From Pollenia angustigena (taxonomy: Eukaryota; Arthropoda; Insecta; Diptera; Polleniidae): a stretch of DNA of 64,000 nucleotides. Both the position numbers and the translations under genes were made by a program. The notes beneath the pieces were generated by a model that saw nothing but the letters and a program-made list of their open reading frames with translations, did not search any database and was not told where the DNA came from. Shown here in pieces: positions 12,570-63,637 of the stretch; within the stretch, counting starts at the first letter, position 1, and each line of letters starts with the position of its first letter. Location of the stretch: assembly GCA_930367215.1 (NCBI GenBank), contig OV884056.1:198751310-198815309 (forward strand), in the 5' to 3' direction.

Positions 12570-14186
12570 AGGCCCAACCCTAATATGCAAAGCCGTACTT
12601 AACCTGCTGTCAAAAACCAACAAAAACTCTCTCAAATGTATTAAAAAAAAAACCAAAACAAAATTAAAAAACATTTGTTTCCGTACAGAATGTGCGATCT
12701 ATTTCGCACTTTGCTTAAGCAAATGACAATTTCGTAAAATTTTTGATATTCTTTAATTAGGCTTGAGTTCATCAAATTTAATTTTCATTAAATTATTTTC
12801 ACTGAGGGAAGGAATTTTACAACTTGGATTTTTTATTATTTTTTTTTTTTTTATTGATAATTTTTCCTGGCTGAGCTGTGATTTGAACCCGGGTTGATCT
12901 TTACATGTTTCAAGAAACACCACTTTCTATCGTCCGAAGATCTTTGTGTTCTACCCACTGCACCACTGCGGTGCCCGTTAGCCAACAGTCAAACATCAAT
13001 CTTTAACCAGTAGTACTGGTGGTTCGAAATTTGCTGTTATTATCACTTAAATTTCAAATTACATGTTGCCTCCTTTTTCCTCTGTTTTTTCGTATTCTTT
13101 CTGTCAAGACTTTGTCTTGAAAACCTGAATACATTTGTTTATTATGTTTTTTTTTTTTTTTTTTTGTCCACTTTCGTCGACATTTTATTTGTACAAATTA
13201 AAGTACAAATGTAAACATTAGAGCTTGTGCCATAGCTATTTCTAAGAACAATTTTTGATTTTTAGTTGAACTGTTAATTTTTAATTTTTGATATTCTTTA
13301 ATTAGGCTTGAGTTCATCAAATTTAATTTTCATTAAATTATTTTCACTGAGGGAAAGAATTTTACAACTTGGAATTTTTTTTTTTTTTTTTTTTTTTTTA
13401 TTGATAATTTTTCCTGGCTGAGCTGTGATTTGAACCCGGGTTGATCTTTACATGTTTCAAGAAACACCACTTTCTATCGTCAGAAGATCTTTGTGCTCTA
13501 CCCACTGCACCACTGCGGTGCCCGTTAGCCAACAGTCAAACATCAATATTTAACCAGTAGTACTGGTGGTTCGAAATTTGCTGTTATTATCACTTAAATT
13601 TCAAATTACATGTTGCCTCCTTTTTCCTCTGTTTTTTCGTATTCTTTCTGTCAAGACTTTGTCTTGAAAACCTGAATACATTTGTTTATTATGTTTTTTT
13701 TTTTTTTTTGTCCACTTTCGTCGACATTTTATTTGTACAAATTAAAGTACAAATGTAAACATTAGAGCTTGTGCCATAGCTATTTCTAAGAACAATTTTT
13801 GATTTTTAGTTGAACTGTTAATTTTTAATTTTTGATATTCTTTAATTAGGCTTGAGTTCATCAAATTTAATTTTCATTAAATTATTTTCACTGAGGGAAG
13901 GAATTTTACAACTTGGAATTTTTTTTTTTTTTTTTATTGATAATTTTTCCTGGCTGAGCTGGGATTTGAACCCGGGTTGATCTTTACATGTTTCAAGAAA
14001 CACCACTTTCTATCGTCAGAAGATCTTTGTGTTCTACCCACTGCACCACTGCGGTGCCCGTTATCCAACAGTCAAACATCAATCTTTAACAAAAAGTTTC
14101 CTAAAGTTCAATATAGTTTGCCTCATGTGATTTACATGTATTCGCACATTTGCTTAAGCCAACTTAAGCACATTGTGGTTGGGCCT
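12570..14186. mobile_element. Harbinger-type MITE, copy A, split by a SINE array
   Basis: Ends AGGCCCAACC (12570) and GGTTGGGCCT (to 14186) are inverted. Both are flanked by TTA (12567-12569 and 14187-14189), the 3-bp TWA target duplication typical of PIF/Harbinger elements. Its sequence runs to about 12740, then resumes at about 14089 (AAAAAGTTTCC). The insert is the SINE array. The uninterrupted relative at 14582-14849 confirms the reconstruction. Confidence 0.8.
12741..14088 (-). repeat. Tandem array (2.5 units of ~545 bp) containing a tRNA-derived SINE
   Basis: The block beginning TTTTGATATTCTTTAATTAG recurs at 12741, 13286 and 13830, a period of 544-545 bp. Units are nearly identical apart from poly-T length and single changes; the third is cut short. 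Each unit carries on the minus strand a SINE head with a pol III A-box-like element (GTGGTGCAGTGGGTAGA, about 12951-12970 in unit 1) and a B-box-like GGGTTCAAATC (12881-12891), followed by an A-rich and AT-rich tail. The rest of each unit (about 235 bp) is non-SINE flank. Near identity implies recent tandem duplication or an assembly duplication. Confidence 0.8.
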
Positions 14187-19948: not shown

Positions 19949-20040
19949 CAGTTATTTCCGCTTAATTGAGTTTCTAAAAATGCACGACTTTTGACGCAAA
20001 CAAACGGGAACTCAATTAAGCAGTATTCGGTTAATTGAAT

Positions 20041-20045
20041 CGCCG
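20041..20045. other. Transib target-site duplication, left copy (CGCCG)
   Basis: CGCCG directly precedes the element. The identical CGCCG follows it at 23928-23932. Transib elements are known for 5-bp, GC-rich duplications. Confidence 0.95.
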
Positions 20046-20081
20046 CACATAGGGGTTTTTTGCCAATCTAGCCGGACATTA
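20046..20081. repeat. Transib terminal inverted repeat, left
   Basis: 36 bp, identical to the reverse complement of 23892-23927; starts CACATAG. The CAC start is shared with Transib ends and with the heptamer of V(D)J recombination signals. A T-run (GGGGTTTTTT) follows at once. Confidence 0.97.
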
Positions 20082-20731
20082 CTTTTTGTTTTAGCTTATA
20101 TTGCTTCTTAAAAGTTATTGAGTGCCCCTAGATCGATGAAACTTGGCAGAAATATGTGATATTGTCATAGGCAGGTAAACCTAAAAAATAAATAAAATCG
20201 GACCAAGGAGGAAAATGTTCCCCCTAGAAGAACTAATCCAACCTCTGAAAAATGCAATTTTTTTTAAACTTTTCCCATACTTTTGTTTGGCAAATGCAAC
20301 TTTTAACGTCGGCGAAAGTTAAAAAACCTAAAATAAGACCCATGAGATCGTAAAATTACACTTTTCGCCCCCCGCCCCCTTTTGAGGACGGTTACATAAA
20401 ATAATATTTAAAAAAAATGTAAATATTAAAAGAAATAGATTACTAACGCCTTAATACTATAAAAATTAAATTTTTGAACTTTAATGGGTAGGGGGAGATA
20501 TCCCTCCAAACACCCCCCCCCCCGGAACGACCCTGTAAAATTTTTTTTTTTTTGCTAATTTCCAAAACATATTAATTTTTAAGATTTTATGTGACTTTTA
20601 TATATTTTATAGTATTTAATTTATCTGAAAATAATTAATATATTCGTAATAATAACTTATTTATAATAGTAACAGCAAATTTTATTTAAAATAATAACAA
20701 CTAATTTATTTAAAATAACTTCTCTTTTGCA

Positions 20732-22768
20732 CTAAGATGATGATGAGTGCCATGGTTCTTCTTCGTCTGCTTCTTCAAAATCCTCTTCTGAATCTGAATT
20801 CTCTTCAGAGCCAAGTACAGGTGGAAGCATAAAAGAAATTGCTTCTTTCGTAAAGGGTAGTGACTTTTTTTTTGGAGTTGGTCTTATACTAGTAATCAGT
20901 GGGTCAGAACTGAGCAAAAGTCTATTTATAACATCTTTGTTACACTGAACCCTCGAAAACTTTCTAGCAAAATTCTGCCTGTAAAGCCGAAAATGTTTAT
21001 TTCGTGCCTCAGACGCTTCTTCTGATAATAGCCCGATAGGCAACAATGCCTCACTCATTACAGTTGCGCCATGTACTAAAATCTTGTGCATTGTAGGTGT
21101 CATAGGATGCCAGGGATATAGAGTAACGTAAAGTTTTGCAGTGTCTAAGCAATAATTGGCAAACTCGTGCAAATGGATTTTGTGACCACTTGTAATTACT
21201 TCAATAATAACTTTGATCCGGTAGATGAAATCCAATGCAATTCCAGTTATTTCTGCAGCTAATTCAGGATTGGAAAAAAATCGTCTGCTGGTGTTACCAT
21301 CGTTGCTGTTTCCAAATCCAGTCTTCGGTACATCCACTATTAGCCCTAATTCACTTCTAAATTTTTCTTGGATAGTTTTTTTCCTCTCATTAACAATAGT
21401 TTTGTCCTCATCCGATCTTAATTGCCACTTTTTTACTGTGAGTTTATACGATAGGTGTAATATGCTCTCAAATAGACGAATTCTGGCGTGCAAAGTAGAT
21501 AATCCGAAAGAAAGTGCATCTACGTCTATATCCCTTTTGATTTTCAAATTGTTAAATTCTTTTGAAGTAGCCCCACAAATATAGCACTTCATTGTGGACG
21601 TAGTTTGTGTTGCGGCATTACATACTTTTGCATCTATCATTGTAAATACCATTGTATGTTTTATGGAATATAACTTTCCTTCCATTAAAAAATTAGTGTT
21701 TTGTAATGTAGTAATGGCATCTTGTACATAATTAATTTCTTCTTGGATTACATCTACAGTTTCTTTAACAAATCTGATGCGAATAGGTCTACAATATCGC
21801 GGTGATGAAGGAGTTGGATTTTGCCATAATATTTTCTCCTTTTTTGCACCATATATTAGTCGAAGCGGTACGAAACTACTCTGAAAAATATGAGAATCAG
21901 AAGCATCATTTTTCATCTTTTGCTTAAATTGTGCCTGGTGTGATCCATCGCAGCCCCATTTGCTTATTAGTTCGAGGGAGTTGCATTCTTCTATTTGTGA
22001 ATCACATAAAACATCTTTTAAATATGTAAGTAATCTACTTGCAGTATGATTAAGCAAATCCTGAAGATTTATTTGAGCACATGTTTCCGTTACTTCAAAT
22101 GATTCTTTTGGAGGATAGCATTCACTTTTCTCTCTCTGCAGAATTTTGTAGCTAGGATAAACCTTCTTAGCGGCACTTCGGATTATTTCATATTGTTTTC
22201 GAGAAAGATCAGCTTCTACAAATATAGAAAGAGCCTTTAGAGGGGTTAGCTGTTTTACTTTATCCTCTTGTGCAGCTTTGTATGCTTTTTTTATTTTTGT
22301 GGCTCTTGCCGGAGAAGACACAATTTCTTTAAGCAGACCTGAGGCATCTTTTTTTCCAGACGTTTGTAGTTGTGTTTGGGTAGCGTGCATCAATAAATCA
22401 GCATCGGTTTGAGTTCGCAAGATTTCAGTTTTTCTTCTCTTACTTCTTTCGGTCAATTCAACAAACGGCTTTTGTAGTCGTTTTGAAGACGAACTCCCAA
22501 AAAAAGGTATTGTCACTGTTCCTTCCAGCCATTTGGCATGCATGCTTACAAATCGATCCTTTTTTCTTTGTGCTGAATGCCAAAATATTTTAAAAAAATA
22601 TTTGAATTTCTTTAAGCATTGATTTACTACTGATATGTCACTATCTCCCTGACATTTTGAAATTTCGCACAATTTTCTAACTAAAAATTGTAATTTCTCT
22701 TCAACGAGTTTAGAACTACATTCTTGTATAATTTGGAATAACTCTAAATTCGTATACACTTTTTCCAT
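20732..22768 (-). CDS. Transib transposase, RAG1-related DDE recombinase
   Basis: A 678-residue protein that should bind the Transib ends and cut and paste the element in the nucleus, by chemistry related to RAG1. Seen: a candidate DDE triad of D274 (in KWGCDGSH), D379 (in FTMIDAKVCN) and a Glu in SEEASEARNK (E587 or E584). A zinc site like that of RAG1 is suggested by C395-x2-C398 (CYIC) and H561-x4-H566 (HKILVH). Between them is the conserved-looking block GFGNSNDGNTSRRFF (about 484-498). The C-terminus (about 654-671) is strongly acidic, followed by a Ser run. The N-terminus is basic and Ser-rich around 90-115. Length fits the family. The ATG at 22768 is the first in frame and lies 3' of a TATATATTTAAA-like stretch; AATAAA words follow the TAG stop. 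No frameshift or stop is seen. Family assignment rests on motif recognition plus the matching TIR and 5-bp duplication. Confidence 0.93.
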   Translation of the reverse strand: MEKVYTNLELFQIIQECSSKLVEEKLQFLVRKLCEISKCQGDSDISVVNQCLKKFKYFFKIFWHSAQRKKDRFVSMHAKWLEGTVTIPFFGSSSSKRLQKPFVELTERSKRRKTEILRTQTDADLLMHATQTQLQTSGKKDASGLLKEIVSSPARATKIKKAYKAAQEDKVKQLTPLKALSIFVEADLSRKQYEIIRSAAKKVYPSYKILQREKSECYPPKESFEVTETCAQINLQDLLNHTASRLLTYLKDVLCDSQIEECNSLELISKWGCDGSHQAQFKQKMKNDASDSHIFQSSFVPLRLIYGAKKEKILWQNPTPSSPRYCRPIRIRFVKETVDVIQEEINYVQDAITTLQNTNFLMEGKLYSIKHTMVFTMIDAKVCNAATQTTSTMKCYICGATSKEFNNLKIKRDIDVDALSFGLSTLHARIRLFESILHLSYKLTVKKWQLRSDEDKTIVNERKKTIQEKFRSELGLIVDVPKTGFGNSNDGNTSRRFFSNPELAAEITGIALDFIYRIKVIIEVITSGHKIHLHEFANYCLDTAKLYVTLYPWHPMTPTMHKILVHGATVMSEALLPIGLLSEEASEARNKHFRLYRQNFARKFSRVQCNKDVINRLLLSSDPLITSIRPTPKKKSLPFTKEAISFMLPPVLGSEENSDSEEDFEEADEEEPWHSSSS

Positions 22769-22930
22769 TTTACTCTCGAAGCTTCAAAATGGTTCTGATT
22801 ACAATTTTATGCAAAAACCACAATATATATTTAAAAAAACTAAGTACCTAGAGCCCAGATTTGATTTTTTATTATATATTATTTTTGTTGTTAATGATTT
22901 TAAAAGTTATGCAAAACAGGTACATTTATT

Positions 22931-23369
22931 TTGCTCTATTAAATAACGTCCTTTAGCGGCCGCACAGGTGGTTAAAACCCGTTACTTACTGTTTCGCACA
23001 TCCCTTTTTTTACACAGGTAATATTAGGCTTATATGTAATAATTTAAATAAAAACCATCTACGTACAACCAAAACATTTTATGACTGACGAAAGGGTTTC
23101 TATCATATGTACCTATGCAAGATGAGCAAAAACAGAAAAAAGGTAAAAAAATTTGTTTGCTCTATTAAATAACGTCCTTTAGCGGCCGCACATGTGGTTA
23201 AAACCCGTTACTTACTGTTTCGCACATCCCTTTTTTTACACAGGTAATATTAGGCTTATATGTAATAATTTAAATAAAAACCATCTACGTACAACCAAAA
23301 CATTTTATGACTGACGAAAGGGTTTCTATCATATGTACCTATGCAAGATGAGCAAAAACAGAAAAAAGG
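22931..23369. repeat. 213-bp direct repeat pair inside the Transib
   Basis: 22931-23143 and 23157-23369 are nearly identical (a visible difference is CACAGGTGG versus CACATGTGG), with a 226-bp period and 13-bp spacer. Each includes TTTAGCGGCCGCAC and GGGTTTCTATCATATGTACC. They lie upstream of the transposase start, so they could hold promoter or transposase-binding sequence (inference). Confidence 0.95.
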
Positions 23370-23891
23370 GGAAATTTTCAAAAAATCATAAAAAAAAATG
23401 GCGCAACAACGCGCAACGTTTTTTTTTTGAATTTAAAAGTAGAGATTTCAAATTTTATCGTGATGTATAAAATTTTTAAGAACTCAGCGGAACTCACCTT
23501 CAAAATCCTTTTAAATTTTTTTTTTTTACAAAAAAGTGAACAAAAAAATCGTTTTTTTTAATTTCGTACTAATTTTTTTATCATAAAAAATTCAAATAAA
23601 ATTTTTCTAAAAATTTTCATAATTAGCTGTTTATATAGTCTTTCACAGAAAAAAAAATTAAATGTAAAATCTTTATTCGTTTATCTACAAAAAAATATAT
23701 TGTAAACCTCCCAAAACCGTAAAAAGTCAATGAACACGCATGCAATTTAATCAACTTTCCTGGTTTTAACAGTGTCCCAAAACCACAAATCTCAAGCAAA
23801 AGACTAGAAAATTCACTATACGATGCAGAACTTTGTTGTCTGTCGAGCTGCGTACTTAAATTTTTCCATTTCTTAAAAAAAATTTTTTGCT

Positions 23892-23927
23892 TAATGTCCG
23901 GCTAGATTGGCAAAAAACCCCTATGTG
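23892..23927. repeat. Transib terminal inverted repeat, right
   Basis: Exact reverse complement of 20046-20081, followed at once by the second CGCCG at 23928-23932. Confidence 0.97.
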
Positions 23928-24364
23928 CGCCGACACAATTAAAACGAAAATCGCTTAATTGAGCAAGATGTGCAATAAAGCGATACACCCATGTGTAGAT
24001 AGAAAATAAAATATAACATTTATTTATATAACATAAACATGACTTTCCTGCCGCTAAATAATTTTTTTTACGTTTGTGGAGCAAAAAGACATTAAGTAGA
24101 CGGAAACAATTAACCGAAACATTTGCACTTGTTTTTCGCAATGCGGTCTTATTTTGCGAAATAATAAAGAGGGTGACGTAATTAAAAGGAACTCAACTAA
24201 GCGGGTATTTTTACATAGACAGTTATACTGAATGATTTCGTTCCATGATTTTTAGTTGAATAAAACGGGAAACTCAATTAAGCGGGGCTCAATTAACCGA
24301 ACACAGCTGTATTATCAATTGCCAATTACCAGATTTAACCATTAGTGTGAAAAAAAACCTTTTT

Positions 24365-24950
24365 AAACAAATTAAATAAAATTGTTATTGATAATCTTTC
24401 ATTCTTGACGTGGCTGGGGCTCGAACCCCGGCCGGCAGGTTACCATGACATGTTTCGATTGCAACCACTCAATCTCCTCAGATGGATTTGCCGTCTTACA
24501 CTCGCAGTCATCGACGACTGCTGACGTCAATAGTCAAACATCAATCCTTAAACCAAATTCAAGTTGTGCTGAAAAAGGTCAACAGAAAAGAAAAAGACAA
24601 AATGAAAAAACCAAAAATGTACTTGGACTTCAAGAAAAATTCTTGACAAGAGTACGAAAAAACAGAAGTAAGAAAAAAAAACATGTAAAATCAATTAAAA
24701 TGGATATTCATTCAGGAAAGCAAATTTCGATCTACCAAATGTTAGAATACAATTTGGTCTAAGGATTGATGTTTGACTATTGACGTCAGCAGTCGTCGAT
24801 GGCTGCGAGTGTAAGACGGCAAATCCATCTGAGGAGATTGAGTGGTTGCAATCGAAACATATCATGGTTTCCTGCCGGCCGGAGTTCGAGCCCCAGCCTC
24901 GTCAAGAATGAAAGATTATCAATAACAATTTTAATTAATTTTCCTGTTGT
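24365..24950. mobile_element. Head-to-head pair of tRNA-like SINEs
   Basis: Arms at about 24372-24563 and 24749-24935 are near-perfect inverted copies. Each has a GTTCGAGCCCC/GGGGCTCGAACC B-box-like site, a GATTGATGTTTGACTATTGAC head and a GATTATCAATAAC tail. Head and tail match the SINE in 12741-14088, so this is a second subfamily. A further copy is at about 40680-40932. The A-rich spacer (about 24564-24748) is open in one frame, but that looks like a by-product of base composition. Confidence 0.8.
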
Positions 24951-33559: not shown

Positions 33560-34680
33560 CCTTTTTTTCTTTATTTATTTATTGAATCTTCATATATTAA
33601 ATATGAACTAACAATAGTTAATCAAATCTTAACCTAATGCTTTATTTTATGTCCTGCCATTGCCAGACAAAAATTTTCTTCATCACGGGTTCTGTTCACA
33701 TATGTAGGTGTTTATCGCTCATCTTAATGGATAAGTGCTGCAGTGTCTCTTCTTCTTAAGCGAGAGTGGCCGCTATCATTTAAAATATTTCGAGCTAGTG
33801 GATTTGGGTGCAACTCTAGCCTTTTCAAATATTTCACCGCATACTTCGTAATAATATTCCTTACCAGTGGCACATTGAGATCCTTGTGGATATTTGAGTT
33901 TTTAACATACCAAGGGGCAGCTGTAATTATTCGAAGAAGTTTATTTTGGCGCCTTTGAATTTTTTCGATATTTGAGGCCGAGGCAGTGCCCCACAGTTGA
34001 ATACCGTAGCACCATATTGGCTTTAAAATAGCGTTGTAAAGTAGTAGTTTGCAATCGAGACTAAGAACAGAATTTCTTCCAATAAGCCAGTTAATTTGAA
34101 TTGATTTTAGTTTCATTTGGGTTAATTTTGCTTCTATATGGCATTTCCATGTTAAACGCCGATCTAGATGAATACCGAGATATTTGACATGCGATTGTTG
34201 AGGCACTAGTTGATTGTCGATTTTAATAGGGGGGCATGTTTCCCGACGCAAGGTGAATGTTATATGTACGCATTTTTGCTCATTGACCTTTATTCTCCAT
34301 TTTTTTAACCACAGTTCTAGTTGAAATATATGATCCTGCAGGTATCGAGATGCTTCACGACTGTTCTCGTGTACGCTTAGAAAAGCTGTATCATCAGCAA
34401 AAGTTGAGGTTAGGGTGAAATTTTATGTTGGCATGTCCGGGGTATATATAAGGTAAAAAAGAGGGCCCAGGATGCTTCCCTGGGGGACTCCAGCTTCAAT
34501 TGGCTGAGGAGAACTTAAAAAATCACCTTCTTTAATAATAAATTTTCGACCGACCAGGTAGCTTTCTAACAGCTTGTGTGTATTAACCGGTAGGTTTAGC
34601 TTCAATTTATGTAACAAGCCTACATGCCAGACTTTGTCAAAGGCTTGGGAAAATCAATGCTCTCCAGAAAAAAATTATTT
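33560..34680 (-). mobile_element. 5'-truncated Jockey-like non-LTR retrotransposon
   Basis: Minus-strand LINE fragment: the 3' part of a reverse transcriptase, a stop, about 160 bp of 3' untranslated region, and a T-rich (A-rich on its own strand) end near 33560. The 5' end stops inside the reverse transcriptase near 34680, as expected from incomplete reverse transcription. Boundaries are approximate. Confidence 0.8.
33724..34680 (-). pseudogene. Reverse transcriptase fragment (Jockey-like), broken
   Basis: Remnant of a LINE reverse transcriptase, which would copy the element's RNA into a chromosomal nick. Reading from 34680 downward: motif A region (SQAFDKVW) near 34640, GVPQGSILGP near 34475, the catalytic FADD near 34390-34402, then KYLGIHLDRRLTW and LLYNAILKPIWCYGIQLWG, typical of the Jockey group C-terminus. 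It ends at a normal stop at 33724. Damage: an apparent one-base deletion just before the motif A residues (about 34655) and a TAA at 34423-34425 between GPLFYL and FADD. The frame is otherwise open on both sides of that stop. The endonuclease and ORF1 are absent. Confidence 0.88.
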
Positions 34681-38359: not shown

Positions 38360-40056
38360 CTAGCTTAACCCGGTGCGCTTCGCTACACTGCTTTAACCAC
38401 CTCTTCAGTTGAGAGTTGTTTAATATATGCATCCTATGGGAGGTATTTCCCCCTGCGCCAGCCCGCTTTATTTTTATTTTCAAAAGTGTAGTATACCATA
38501 AGAGTAACTTCTACAAAGTTTAAAAATTCTTACTATAACAGTTTTTAAGATATGCGATATTAAACATTGGCGTCCGATGAGGGGTAACACTTCCCCCGCT
38601 GCTATTTTGTTTAAATTTTGGGGCTCAGAAGATCCTACTACCAAAAGTTCAACAAACTGCCAGCGGCTCTTATTAATATTTCTATCTATGAGGGGTACTG
38701 CTCCTCCTCTGTCTACCGCGCCCCTTTTTAATTACAATTTGCCATAATAGTAGCTTTAACCACGTTTGAAGACTCTCCCTTTAATAGTTCTTCATTTGAG
38801 CTATCTTTAATATATGCATCCTATGCGAGGTATTAACCCGCTTTATTTTTGCTTTCAATAGTGTAGTATACCATAAGAGAACTTCTACAACGTTTGAGCA
38901 TTCTCACTAAAACAGTTCTTAAGATATACGATATTAAACATTAGCGTCCTATGGTGGGTACCATTTCCCCCGCTGCTATTTTGATTCAATTTTGGGGCTC
39001 AGAAGATCCTACTACCATGAGTCCAACAAATTGCTGGCAGCGGCTCTTATTTATATTTCTATCTATGAGGGGTACTGCTTCTCCTCTGGCTACCCAGCCC
39101 ATTTCTCTATTGAAATTTTTAGTTTACCATAATAGTAGCTTTAACCACGTTTGAAGACTATCCCTTAAATAGTTCTTCAGTTGAGCGGTATTTAATATAT
39201 GGATCCTATGGGAGGTATTTCCCCTCTTGAGGCTACCCGCTTTATTTCTATTTTCAAAAGTGTAGTATACCATAATTGTGACTTCTGCAAATTTGGAACA
39301 TTCTCACTATAACAGTTCTTAAGATATGCGATATTTAACATTGGCGTCCTATGGTGGGTAACACTTCCCCCGCTGCTATTTCATTTCAATTTTGGGGCTC
39401 AGAAGACTCGACCAAAAGTTCAACAAAATGCGTGCAGCGGCTCTTATTAATATTTCTATATATGAGGGGAACTGTCTACCCCGCCCATTACTATATTGAA
39501 ATTTAAAGTTTGCTATAATAGTAGCTTTAACCACGTTTGAAGACTCTCCCTTTAATAGTTCTTCAGTTGAGCGATATTTAATATGTGCATCCTATGAGAG
39601 GTATTGCCCCCCTTCGCCTACCCGCTTTGTTTTTATTTTCAATATTGTAGTATACCATAAGAGTGACTTCTACAAAGTTTGAACATTCTCACTATAACAG
39701 TTCTTAAGATATGCGATATTAAACATTGGCGTCCTATGGGGGGTACCACTTCTCCCGCTGCTATTTTATTTTAATTTTGAGGCGCAGAAGATCCTACTAC
39801 CAAAAGTTCAACAAAATGCGTGCAGCGGCTCTTAAGATATGCGATATTTAATACTGGCATCCAATGGGGGGTACCAATTCCCCTGCCCCTATCGAAAAAA
39901 TAAGTAGCCTATTTTATTTTTAGGGCTCACGTGATGCTACTGTAAAAATGTCAGGAAAATCGGTTCAGTAGTTTAGGAGTCTGTAAGCCAACATACAAAC
40001 AAACAAACAAACAAACAAACAAACATGCAAACATTTTTCATTTTTATATATATAGA
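38360..40056 (-). mobile_element. Non-autonomous Helitron with internal tandem repeats
   Basis: On the minus strand it begins TCTATATATATAAAAATGAA, preceded by A, followed by a (GTTT)n tract. It ends GCACCGGGTTAAGCTAG followed by T, with a GC-rich imperfect hairpin (GCGAAGCGC) just before. A|TC...CTAG|T ends are the Helitron hallmark. Inside are about four units of ~363-396 bp, with GCTTTAACCAC at 38390, 38753, 39138 and 39534. No Rep/helicase gene, so it would be mobilised in trans by rolling-circle replication. Confidence 0.85.
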
Positions 40057-40679
40057 TAGTAGAGAGAGAATTATGCGTTTGTGCTGATGTGTGTAACATT
40101 GTTATTATAAATCATTATTACGAAACTTTTGTAAATATTTCTTATGAAGTTAATAGCTGCGTTCGTTTACGCCAAAATTTGTACTGGATTTTACTGAAAT
40201 GCGTTCGCGTACACATAAATTTGTAAACTTTTCATATTACTCACCTACTGGATTTTACTGGAAAAGTAAACGAACACACATATTATAAACTCAACTCTTG
40301 AGAGGAGAACAAAATTTCCTTTTGCCATTATAGTGTGAGTAAATTCAAAACTTTAAAGTCGTTTTAGGAAAACTAATATTTTTGAGTTATGATGATGTTC
40401 AAGCAAATGAGCGATATAAAGATCTGAATGTATAGCCAGTTTTGCAATCTTCAAATACAAACATCTTAATATTAGTGCGAACTTTTACTCTTCATTGCTT
40501 AATGTAAAGTACCACAGACTCTGCAATAACTGTAATTGAAATCACTAAAATAACAGCTGATATTGTTTTTATTGCCATTTCATTTATCTTATATCAAAAG
40601 CAAGGTTAAATAATTAGGTTATCGAAAAATGTTTAGTATTGTGGTTATTTTGTTGTACTGTTTATGGTTTTTAATCCAA

Positions 40680-40932
40680 ATTTTGATATATTAAATTAGG
40701 CTAAAGTTCATCAAATTTAATTCTCATTAAATTATTTCTTCATAAAGAAAGGAATTTAATAACATGAAATTCGTTTAAATTTATTAATAATTTTTCATTC
40801 TTAACTGCCGTGGGGGTCGAAACCAGGCTTTCACGGGCAGGTTACCCTTTCATGTTTGAATTGTAAGCACTCAATATCTTCAGAGGATTTTGCCATTTAA
40901 CACTCACAGCCATTGACGACTGCTGGCGGCAG
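40680..40932 (-). mobile_element. tRNA-like SINE (same subfamily as 24365-24950)
   Basis: Shares the AATTAGGCTAAAGTTCATCA tail side and the GGTTACC...CATGTTT and CACTCAATATCTTCAGAGGA body with the inverted pair at 24.4-24.9 kb. Its 5' end abuts CAGGGGTGCCAGAT, the start of a probable hAT remnant. Confidence 0.7.
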
Positions 40933-52470: not shown

Positions 52471-55060
52471 ATTATTATTATTATTTATTAATAGATATGA
52501 AATAATTTGGACATTTAAAGTTCTTAATAGTATACAATTTATTTTATCTATATATGGCGTAACAAAATGTTGTAAGCCAGATTAGCAGATTACTATTATA
52601 TTGACTGTAATATATGATTAGGGTACATTTCTATTTATTTGGAATATAAAGATATTTCTAGTAATTAAATTCATTTAACAACAATTTTCTATACGTCAAA
52701 CAAACTTTAAGGTATTTATATAGTTTGCAATAGTTCAAGCCGTTAAGTTTGCTGATGACCTCATTTACATTAAGCTGCCTTTTACCAAAATATTCCAGCC
52801 TGTATGTGTTGTATATAGGGCATACACCGATAAAGTGTTGTATGTTTTCAGATTCATCCGAGTTACATATTGTACATATAACAACCGTATTGGTTCTAAA
52901 TGCTCTTCCATTTAGGTCTAGTAAGCCGCCTCTAGCTTTTATTATAATGCCAGTCATCCGGGCGTTAAAACCTTCTAGAAGAATTGGAATACGATTAAAA
53001 TTTAGTTGTGGGTAGAGGTCGTGGAACTGTGAGTTAGATGCATCAGACAAAAACTCTTCCCTCTCTTTTACCATCAGTTGATGGAGCACACCCTTCCAAT
53101 TCTGGCTGATAAACGAGGTAGTGTCGTCAGGAATGAAGTTGATGCGTTCTTTTAATGATTCCCAATCGTTGAACCAGTACAGTTTATTATTTATTACATA
53201 TTAAGCCAGTATGCGTGGTAATCTTTGTGGATTGATTTTTAAAACTTTGTTAACATAACAGAAGTGTAACTTTAAGGAGGTGATAAACAGAGAATTAAAA
53301 CCAGTTTCTAAGTGCAACATATAATTTGGAGTAGAGTTTGGCAAGTGTAGCATTTTCTTTACGAAAAATCGGAGTAGTTTTTCAACATCTTCGTATTTCT
53401 AAAAGCCCCAAACCTGTGCAGCATATAACATTATTGACCTGGATGCAGCATGAAATATTTTTAATTTATTGGTATTAGAAATGACTGGGTTATTTATATA
53501 TTTGCACCATGTGGAGTTAATAGCGAGTTTGGAGGACGATAGTTTGTTATAGAGATGTTTTTTAAAAGACATGTTATATGTGATTTCTACACCTAGATAT
53601 TTGTAGTAGTTCACTATCTCAATATATTCTTCACCATATTTCCAAGTCAGATTTGAAGAGATCCTGGTGCCAGAGCGGAATACCAGTATTTTTGACTTCT
53701 CAAGGTTAACTTTAAGGCACCATGTCAGACAGTATTTACGTAGTTTATTGATCATAGCTTGTAAACCACTTGCCGAGTCAGATAAGATAACAATATCATC
53801 TGCGTATGCCAAGATTTTAATATTCACTCCGGCCACGGTAATACCCCCAGGTAATTCTTCATCTAAATCATTAGTATACAGTGAAAAAAGAATTGGACTA
53901 AGGATACATCCTTGTTTTACTCCAACCTCGACAGCCAAGCATTTCGATAAAGAGTTACCGTACCAGATTTGACTTTCGTTGTTTTCGTATAGGCATTGTA
54001 ATAATCTAATTATCTTAGAAGAAAGCCCGAGGCACGACAGTTTGTAGAAAAGACCGTTACGAGGTATGATATCAAATGCGCATAAAAAATCTACAAAAAA
54101 TGCGAAGGTATTTTTTCCATTGGCTTTGTTGATATGTACGATGTTAGAGAGGTTGAATAAATTATCTACAGTCGAATAATGTTTTCTGAAGCCAGCTTGG
54201 AATTCTTTTAAAATTTTATTATTATCGATCCAAAAAGATAATCGGTTGAGTATAATTGTAGTAAAGATTTTACATATGGCATCTATTAGTGAAAGTCCTC
54301 GATAATTTGCTGGTATATTAGCGTCACCCTTTTTGAAAAGCGGTATAATAATAGATTTGCGAAAGTTTTTAGGTACTGACTCATGTAAAAAGATTTTGTT
54401 ATATATATTAATTAGCTTGTGTAATAACTGGTCAGGAGCGTATTTGTAGAATTCATAACTGATGCCGTCTTGGCCAGGAGCTTTGTTAAGTTTTAATGTT
54501 TTAACCACTGTAGCTAGTTCATAGTATTCTGTGGGTGAATCAAGTACCGGGTCGATAATATATGGCATAGCCCAGCAGATTTCAATTGATTCTTCGTTGT
54601 ATTTCAGAATTTTGCTAAAATATAAGTAAAAATCATCAGCACATAAATGCCCAGAAGTTTGCAAATTGCGAGTTTTTAATGTATTCGACAGTTTCCACCA
54701 ATCGCTAGAACATTTTACCCTGTTAAGAAGTTCCAAATTTTTGTTATACAAGTCGAGTTTTTTAGTTCTACATACCATAAGATACTTGGCTCTTGCATTT
54801 TTGTAGCGAGTTTTGTTTTCAGTTGTATGGTTTCTTCTGTATATTTTAAGATTGTTTTTCATGCATAACCGCAAGCGGGCGCACTTCCAATCAAACCACT
54901 TTTGTCTGGGTTCAAAGGAAAACGTATTTCTGGCAGTTGTTTTATATGCTTGTTTGATATTGTTTGTTAGATTTGTTAATAAGACATCCACTGAATCTGT
55001 TTGAAAGTTCTCATTTGTATTAATACGATTGAATCTGTCTGCGTATGTATCGGCAAATTT
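52471..55060 (-). mobile_element. 5'-truncated non-LTR retrotransposon with (TAA)n tail
   Basis: Minus-strand LINE of about 2.6 kb. Its 3' end is a (TAA)n-type tail (ATTATTATTATTATT on the plus strand, 52471-52490), preceded by about 170 bp of 3' untranslated region. It encodes a reverse transcriptase and a C-terminal CCHC region. The 5' end falls between where an endonuclease and the reverse transcriptase would join, so endonuclease and ORF1 are missing. Clade not assigned; the (TAA)n tail and C-terminal CCHC would suit I/R1-like groups. Confidence 0.85.
52658..55060 (-). pseudogene. LINE reverse transcriptase with two nonsense codons
   Basis: The open frame from 55093 to 53399 shows, by residue: a linker rich in K/R with WFDWKCARLR (66-75), LNKAPGQDGISYEF (202-215), NYRGLSLIDAICKI (263-276), the motif A aspartates in FVDFLCAFD (333-341), GVKQGCILSP (391-400) and the catalytic AYADD (429-433). 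A TAG at 53399-53401 interrupts it. The same frame continues to a TAA at 53201-53203, then on to a natural stop at 52658. The last segment carries C-x2-C-x9-H-x4-C (CTIC...H....C), a zinc-knuckle-like motif. No frameshift is needed, so only two point changes separate this from an open frame. The first 11 codons of the open frame (55061-55093) belong to the flanking repeat, not to the LINE. Confidence 0.88.
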
Positions 55061-55366
55061 AAATATGGATTTATCTATGTTTATAAACTTCATTTAAATC
55101 GGTTTAAAAGTATGTGAGAGGCAAATACTGCATAGCAAATGTTTCCATATAAATATGTTTCTATCTATGATTTAAATTTTATTTAAATCGGTTTCTGAGA
55201 GGCAGAAATTGCCCCCTATCTTCTTTCGTGGTATGATTCGTACCATTTTCAATATGCTTGGTCCTTGTGCCAATAAGAATCTATGTGCCAAATTATCGGA
55301 CATTATTAGATCAACTCAGAAAGTGATTCTGATACCCTCACCACGATTGTGGTGTGGATATAAAAA

Positions 55367-61228: not shown

Positions 61229-61459
61229 GTATAACAAAAATTCATTGTTACTTAAAAATTAAACAATATTCTTGTGTTTTCTAAAAATGTTTCAATTTAT
61301 AATGATAAATTAGATTATGATTAACATTTTGTAATATAAATATTGGTTCCAAATCGTCTTATTATTATTCGTTCTTCCAGTTATTTCTTTTAAAGGAGAT
61401 TTCTCCTTGTAAAGATATACATTTTTACTTATCATAACCGTTTTGTTTCTCTCTTCCAG

Positions 61460-63261
61460 AATCACACTCCATGGCTATACGACAATGTCCAATGCTCGTG
61501 AATTGGCATTGTTAGAGAAATGGTCGTCTGATGGTGCTACAATTATACCACCCCTTTCTTCGCCCACCTCTCCCAAAGCAACAAAATTTTGCTGTTGTCC
61601 AAATCGACGTCGCTATAACATCAAACAACCCAAATTAACCACCACACTACACGTTCGCAACATTTTCGTCGACAACGATTTCAATTTTATCGACGATCCC
61701 ACACTTAACGAAGACGACAACGACAACGGCAATAGTCAAGAATTGCAATTGTCTTTAGAAGACACAAACAACTATAAAAGAGCTGAAAGTTGGCCCAGTG
61801 CTAAACGAGCACACAAATATAATTTGAACAATACGAAATTATTGGAAGCTGAAGTTCACAAGGAAAATTTACAGTACAATGTGGCGTCAGCTAAAGAGAA
61901 CAATGATTATGATGATCTTGATGAAATTGTAAATAATAACAGTAGCAAAGTCATAACGAAAGAATTAAAAACGAAAAAAGAAAACGAACTGGTAGAGGTT
62001 GCAAAAATCGTTGGAGAAGTTGAAGAGGAAGCCGCAAAATGGCGGCATAATAAAAGCTGTCATAATAATCGAAGTAATTGTTTAATGAATGAACACGAAC
62101 GAAAGTCTAATAGCAGCAGATGTTCAACAAATGAATTCACCCACAAACAGCAACTGCAGCAGAAGCAACAACAGCAGCAGCAGCAAATAAAAGAACAAAT
62201 AGAGGAAGTTTTTAGAAAATCAAATGTCAAGAAGCCTTTAAAACAAAGTGGCAATGAAGACGGCAGTAATGCAACTCAACATAACAGACTACAAACGACG
62301 ACTACAGATATTGAAGTTAACAAAGAGTGTGAGAATTTTGAGAAGACAAATGCGAACTTAGAAGCAACTAATGAACAAATCTTAACAAACACAACAACAA
62401 AAACCACATCACCATTAATCCAAAGACTTAGTGAAATAAGTGAACTAAAATCTAGTTTAAGTAAAACAACTTTTAACAATAAAACACACCAACAACAACA
62501 ACAACAACAGCATCAGCAGCAGAAGTCGGATAAACTGCAACATTGTAACAATTGTCAGTTTTGTTTCAATCAAAATTGTCGTAACTTTTCACAACTACAA
62601 CAAAGTTTACAACAACACAACGAAAGTTGCCTTAACAACAATACCTCTTGTATAAAGAACAAGAACAATAACAACAATAAAATGACAATTACTACACAAA
62701 CGAATGTGGCAAATAATCAGCAACGTAAGCGTAGTATTATTCTCAACAATAGCAATAATATTGCTAGTGAATGTGATACATTAACATTGCCACAAGAGCA
62801 AAAAGCAGCAGTAGCATCTAATAATACAACAACAACAACATTGCCTAGTTTAATAACATATTCAACAAAAATGCCAGCAACAACACCAACATCTCCCATA
62901 CCACGTTCTAATGCTACAAACAACACTCCTTTATCACCTCTAACAACAACTGTGATTAAAACTACAATGGTGAAACGTAGTCCTGCTAATGAGTCGACAG
63001 CAATGACGACAACATCACCACCACCAACATCTCCAGCAACGACACCAACATCCGCCTCATTAACGATAGAAAAATCTTTAGCATTCTTAAATAATGTCCA
63101 AGATATCGCTAAGGAGAATAAACCTGCGAACAACAAGTGTTTGACAGTTCCAAAAGCGACAACAAGTACTGTAACTGCAACAACAACAACAGATACGGAA
63201 AATACTGCATTCGCTTCTTTAAGTGTAAAGGAACGTATTGCTGCTTTAGTAGCTGGAAATG
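61460..63261 (+). CDS. Large exon of an unidentified host gene, Gln/Asn/Thr-rich protein
   Basis: Function not recognised. The exon follows a good acceptor (TTTGTTTCTCTCTTCCAG, AG at 61458-61459) and ends at a good donor (G|GTAAGTTAAG, GT at 62-63 of 632xx). The frame is open through the acceptor side; the first in-frame ATG is at 61485 (MSNARELALLEKW), so it could be a start or internal, and 592 codons follow it. An out-of-frame ATG lies at 61471. Seen in the protein: a CCC cluster in a basic patch (KFCCCPNRRRY), an acidic stretch (NEDDNDNG), Lys/Glu-rich likely coiled or disordered segments, two poly-Gln runs (near 62158-62190 and 62488-62523), a Cys-rich patch (HCNNCQFCFNQNC), Asn- and Thr-runs, many S/T-P sites, and LSVKERIAAL at the exon end. 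Low complexity suggests mostly disorder. The gene continues past the window; an adaptor or cytoskeletal scaffold is only a guess. Confidence 0.85.
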
Positions 63262-63637
63262 GTAAGTTAAGATTTTTTTTTTTTTAATTTTTGTTGTCAT
63301 TTACAAAAATGATAAATGTGGTTTTTAACAGGTTATATGGAATAGTATTTGGTTGTAGTCGCTAGAAACTTCTTTAGGAAATTAACATACAGAATTGTAA
63401 ACTATAGTCCTCCTGTCCTTTAAACTGTTGTAAAAATCATTAAAGAAGAACGTTTTTATGTTTCAAAATATGTATATTAAAGCTTTAAGGCAAGGCGAAT
63501 TAATTTTTCAGCTGAGCTACTTTTTTGTAACTCAGGAAGAGACATGTCAAAAGTTACTTGGGTACGTCAAAGATCAACTAAAGCAACAATAAAAATACTA
63601 TGTTGTGTTTTTTTATTGTTGTGTTATCTATTGCCAC
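63262..63637 (+). other. Start of the following intron
   Basis: GTAAGTTAAG at 63262, then AT-rich DNA with poly-T. No second exon is seen before the window ends. Confidence 0.7.

Follow-up and report, generated by a model that had tools for sequence, protein, structure and literature searches.

The DNA analysed here, hereafter the window, is a 64,000-nucleotide stretch of the genome of the fly Pollenia angustigena (assembly GCA_930367215.1, contig OV884056.1, forward-strand positions 198,751,310 to 198,815,309). At positions 20046-23927 it harbours a 3882-bp element of the Transib superfamily of DNA transposons. The left terminal inverted repeat (TIR; 20046..20081, + strand), which begins with CACATAGGGG, is the reverse complement of the right one (23892..23927, - strand) over 36 bp, and the two ends diverge abruptly at base 37. 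The pentanucleotide CGCCG flanks the element on either side, at 20041..20045 and 23928..23932. Both the perfect 36-bp TIRs and the perfect 5-bp duplication announced by an initial annotation of this DNA are therefore exact. The TIRs open with CAC, the invariant start of Transib ends (PMC7204232; this and the other papers are cited from excerpts), and Transib target duplications are typically 5 bp long (PMC4411706, PMC7204232, PMC3276498).

With up to three mismatches permitted, the terminal 20 nucleotides occur at just two sites in the window and at none in 100 shuffled versions of it. Inverted repeats as such are common there, with 16 blocks of 20 or more exact bp inside 8 kb, very AT-rich ones excluded, so that the weight of the evidence rests on the ends, the duplication and the transposase taken together. 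The transposase gene (20732..22768, - strand) is one unbroken frame of 678 codons followed by a stop, as the initial annotation had stated; the longest open run in 200 base shuffles is 137 codons. It is the sole gene-sized frame inside the element. Of the frames listed, just one more within it reaches 80 residues; it is 119 residues long, antisense, and overlaps the transposase.

The closest characterised protein is the HzTransib transposase of Helicoverpa zea (PDB 6pqn/6pqx), which phmmer matches over residues 175-645 (E=5.3e-116); a profile of 48 aligned rows matches at E=9.9e-164. The bit score is 391.8 for HzTransib, against 22.1 for amphioxus BbRAG1L. The predicted fold is of the HzTransib/RAG1 type, with an RNase H fold. 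The compared rows lie for the most part within residues 172-634, so the comparison says little about the N-terminal 170 residues; the N-terminal domain folded alone, without an alignment, reached a pLDDT of 47. Sequence and predicted fold thus agree on a Transib identity and on kinship with RAG1, as first proposed.

As for the catalytic residues, D274, D379 and E587 align with those of HzTransib, with the spacing published for D126/D225/E436 (PMC6941560), and in the profile match with D600, D708 and E962 of RAG1. Each of the eight residues named at the outset bears the stated letter. For the glutamate, two candidates had been left open, of which E587 is catalytic by alignment and E584 is not. 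The predicted zinc site, C395/C398/H561/H566, aligns with the C/C/H/H residues of HzTransib and is invariant in all 48 rows. The pattern was thought to be shared with RAG1, and this holds for the histidines, which align with H937/H942, but not for the RAG1 cysteine pair, which lies at the edge of the match and out of register. A Pfam scan of the transposase returned no family at the curated cut-off. A weak KIF21A row in that scan (E=0.037) and DnaK rows in the phmmer output (E of 0.23 and worse) were taken as noise. PF12940 (RAG1) matched three of four scanned homologs, each below its cut-off. PF26100 is a precomputed annotation of many homologs; our Pfam scan returned it neither for the transposase nor for four homologs that have it in the precomputed data, P0004, P0025, P0035 and P0064.

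One conserved motif is altered. Residues 96-98 (22475..22483, - strand) read KRL where the alignment of 48 rows has GRP (G in 44, R in 45 and P in 43 rows), in a segment that is otherwise conserved. A pattern for this region found 91 of the 120 listed homologs, 88 of them with GRP. Among the 29 that it missed, GRP was found by eye in 16 and was absent from two; for the other 11, several of them truncated, the stretch was not printed. A nonamer-binding domain (NBD) with GRP, equivalent to that of RAG1, has been described in both Transib subgroups (PMC9435367), a sub-feature of Transibs that does not define the superfamily. The GGRPR of the RAG1 domain contacts DNA (PMC6941560). We propose that residues 96-98 occupy the site equivalent to this AT-hook-like motif; in our profile match GRP lines up with GGRPR at a non-significant -1.5 to -2.2 bits. 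The initial annotation considered that all parts of the element were present. The ends, the duplication and the frame bear this out, but the statement is too strong because the conserved GRP reads KRL.

The element is almost certainly a full-length Transib transposon that encodes its own transposase, is or was until recently live, and has inserted into the fly genome. Its ends, its target duplication, its open frame, the predicted fold and the catalytic triad all speak for this. By analogy with known systems, a transposase dimer would bind the CAC-initiated 36-bp ends, and the DDE site in the RNase H fold would nick and hairpin the flanking DNA, as HzTransib and RAG do. The enzyme would then free the 3.9-kb element and insert it elsewhere across a 5-bp stagger, which would generate the CGCCG duplication. 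What the sequence offers is a complete and possibly active insect Transib, in which one motif is altered and whose target is suggestive.

Several observations weigh against a working copy. The end heptamer, CACATAG, parts from the heptamer of the recombination signal sequences (RSSs), CACAGTG, after CACA. As regards the residue mapping rather than activity, the part of RAG1 that holds D600 and D708 reaches just 5.9 bits alone, and that with E962 16.8, so that the mapping of the catalytic residues leans on HzTransib and on the fold. Where the other 47 rows agree to 95% or more in a column, the protein deviates four times (G96K, P98L, L522I and A586S), and two of these changes, G96K and P98L, are non-conservative and fall in the same motif. 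Among the other rows, 29 have fewer such deviations, 4 equally many and 14 more. The only 95% identical relative among the matches listed, P0002, is a 529-residue frame without the N-terminus. Lastly, tblastn and blastn found no other copy of the element elsewhere in the window. A stretch of the end, GGTTTTTTG at its positions 9-17, caught the eye as a possible RSS-like nonamer, but it is nonamer-like only when reversed and lacks a spacer, and we give it no weight.

Alternatively, the copy may be complete in structure but encode an impaired enzyme; it would have inserted recently, perhaps through the transposase of another copy, and would now be beginning to decay. This scenario differs from that of a live element on activity only, and we rate it at somewhat less than an even chance. 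The two non-conservative changes from GRP to KRL, the truncated nearest relative and the lack of a second copy in the window speak in its favour. Nevertheless, the KRL change need not be fatal: HzTransib cleaves in vitro (PMC6941560), although its PDB sequence aligns only past the GRP segment, from about residue 171-175 of our protein, leaving some 170 N-terminal residues uncovered. The GRP segment may thus be dispensable. Both deviations in the core, L522I and A586S, are mild, and serine 586 is also found in P0002 and HzTransib. A single copy is not odd either, since autonomous Transibs are usually present in one or few copies (PMC4411706).

That the locus represents a host gene exapted from a Transib recombinase, rather than a mobile element, is very improbable. 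The unbroken frame and the conserved core would be compatible with domestication. However, domesticated copies are expected to lose their ends and target duplication, whereas here both are perfect and mark a recent insertion, and relatives at 77-78% identity occur in other insect orders. A RAG1L-RAG2L transposon of the ProtoRAG type, to which the RAG1-like fold and C-terminal match might point, is barely conceivable given the single long frame, next to which only the 119-residue antisense frame is listed, and the far higher score of HzTransib than of BbRAG1L. With respect to a RAG2-like partner, no second gene-sized frame lies within the element, a statement on frames only, as no separate search for RAG2 homology was made. 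Vertebrate RAG1 and BbRAG1L share with the Pollenia transposase the RNase H-type fold, the DDE positions and the histidine pair, at 14-17% identity. The element differs from the RAG systems in lacking a RAG2-sized frame and in its symmetric 36-bp ends, and the correspondence of GRP with the NBD, which has been claimed for Transibs as a whole (PMC9435367), was non-significant in our profile match. To call it a relative of the ancestor of the V(D)J recombinase, as was done initially, is therefore correct only in the broad sense that applies to any Transib, as it is far nearer to HzTransib than to RAG1.

The insertion site has an unusual structure. When the element and one CGCCG are removed, the flanks form an imperfect inverted repeat (33 aligned columns, 26 matches) that is symmetrical about the central base of CGCCG; the element thus sits on the axis of a palindrome of about 66 bp, with its left arm at 20011..20045 (+ strand) and its right arm at 23928..23963 (- strand). 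Among the 42 CGNCG sites of the element-free window, this one has a palindrome score of 36 and the next best 21. In gapped tests, 10 of 60,113 centres, at three places, were equally good with arms anchored at the centre, and 72 of 60,113, in eight clusters, with arms starting anywhere within 40 bp. As single-stranded DNA, the target folds at -15.9 kcal/mol (z -4.6), with one of 200 shuffles equalling it. Without gaps the signal was weak, at 17 of 30 pairs, a value equalled by 382 of 60,113 centres and by 15 of 500 local shuffles. Aligning the two arms takes a 1-nt gap, and the gapped tests are stronger. The palindrome was noticed before it was tested, and it is a single case.

Transposons of Drosophila are known to favour short palindromes as target motifs, such as CCANTGG for hopper and transib2 (PMC3276498), which differs from the CGCCG found here. 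A palindrome as long as the present one is a different matter. It is tempting to speculate that the tips of long palindromes, extruded as cruciforms, are where Transibs of this clade home, an idea that we nonetheless regard as unlikely. Targeting of hairpin tips by RAG has been reported in vitro. If homing to palindrome tips proved true, hairpin-tip targeting would be an ancestral Transib/RAG habit visible in nature.

P0002, 95% identical over 529 columns, pairs with the Pollenia transposase in a tree of 31 rows, and P0001 comes next. The seven-row clade that contains our protein (support 97/97) also holds sequences from Lepidoptera and Coleoptera. Euphydryas editha P0022, a shorter record of 452 residues, is 78% identical over 67% of the protein, and Brassicogethes aeneus P0026, also shorter with 465 residues, is 77% identical over 68%. 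Because such amino acid identities over two thirds of the protein span insect orders, we infer, more weakly, that horizontal transfer may have brought the element into the fly lineage or its ancestors. Massive movement of Transibs between hosts has already been put forward as a possibility (PMC9435367). Searches of viral and prokaryotic contig collections gave 7 and 11 pattern stretches, respectively, none of which was confirmed as a relative; these have no bearing on fly genomes.

The element contains other features. An AATAAA hexamer just past the stop codon (20705..20710, - strand) is a candidate poly(A) signal, and a second one is found at 20681-20686 (- strand), both identified by motif only. 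Upstream of the transposase gene, in the interval that separates it from the right end, lies a tandem duplication (22930..23374) of two copies of 219 nt with a spacing of 226, 99.5% identical across the 214 nt that BLAST aligned. The copies may represent a doubled promoter or leader, or the duplication may be accidental.

Elsewhere in the window, a foldback or MITE-like repeat (24369-24941) lies some 440 bp from the transposon, with 191-bp arms that are 95.8% complementary and about 190 bp apart; partly similar sequence (66-79%) is found within 12737-13949 and 40627-40931. A direct repeat at 12738-14090 has a spacing of about 545 bp and 97% identity, and a tandem array at 38402-39834 comprises 3.7 copies with a period of 385 bp. 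Positions 52658-55093 (- strand) probably correspond to a fragment of a non-LTR retrotransposon, with a 564-residue frame that includes a reverse transcriptase (RVT_1, E=1.5e-35), then a 180-residue frame without a Pfam match. A second RVT_1 piece is present at 33724-34422. Lastly, a frame at 61482-63287, in a region delimited as 61413-63287 (+ strand), has long Q/N/T runs, an N-terminus conserved in flies and no Pfam family. Its first 130 residues have 11 protein matches, among them some at 90% and 87%. The frame matches two Glossina proteins at 72% over 84%, a Teleopsis protein at 77% over 55% and one of Drosophila guanche at 61% over 55%. By bit score these matches point to a calyptrate host, less firmly in view of the Teleopsis protein.

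The initial annotation presupposed that a live Transib in an insect is something exceptional, a view that is out of date. Transib1 spread through D. melanogaster between 2013 and 2016 (PMC12230796) and has been implicated in lethal insertions that carry 5-bp duplications (PMC12974806), and 533 insertion sites of hopper have been reported, 532 of them with a 5-bp duplication (PMC3276498). The present element resembles both in its superfamily, as the papers assign it, and in its 5-bp duplication; recent activity is published for Transib1 and hopper. No title on this element was found among the Transib papers listed, and the word Transib was absent among the best matches listed from the literature on calyptrate families; the family may already be catalogued in Repbase or Dfam. 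An intact insect Transib is no longer surprising in itself, and this one is a well-formed further member of an established superfamily.

Nevertheless, the characterised kin of RAG1 gain with this element a complete fly Transib that can be assayed. It offers an N-terminal segment beyond that seen in the HzTransib structures, together with a natural GRP variant with which one could test whether the NBD-like motif matters in end binding. If palindrome targeting were to hold across copies, it would tie the natural target choice of Transibs to the preference of RAG in vitro.
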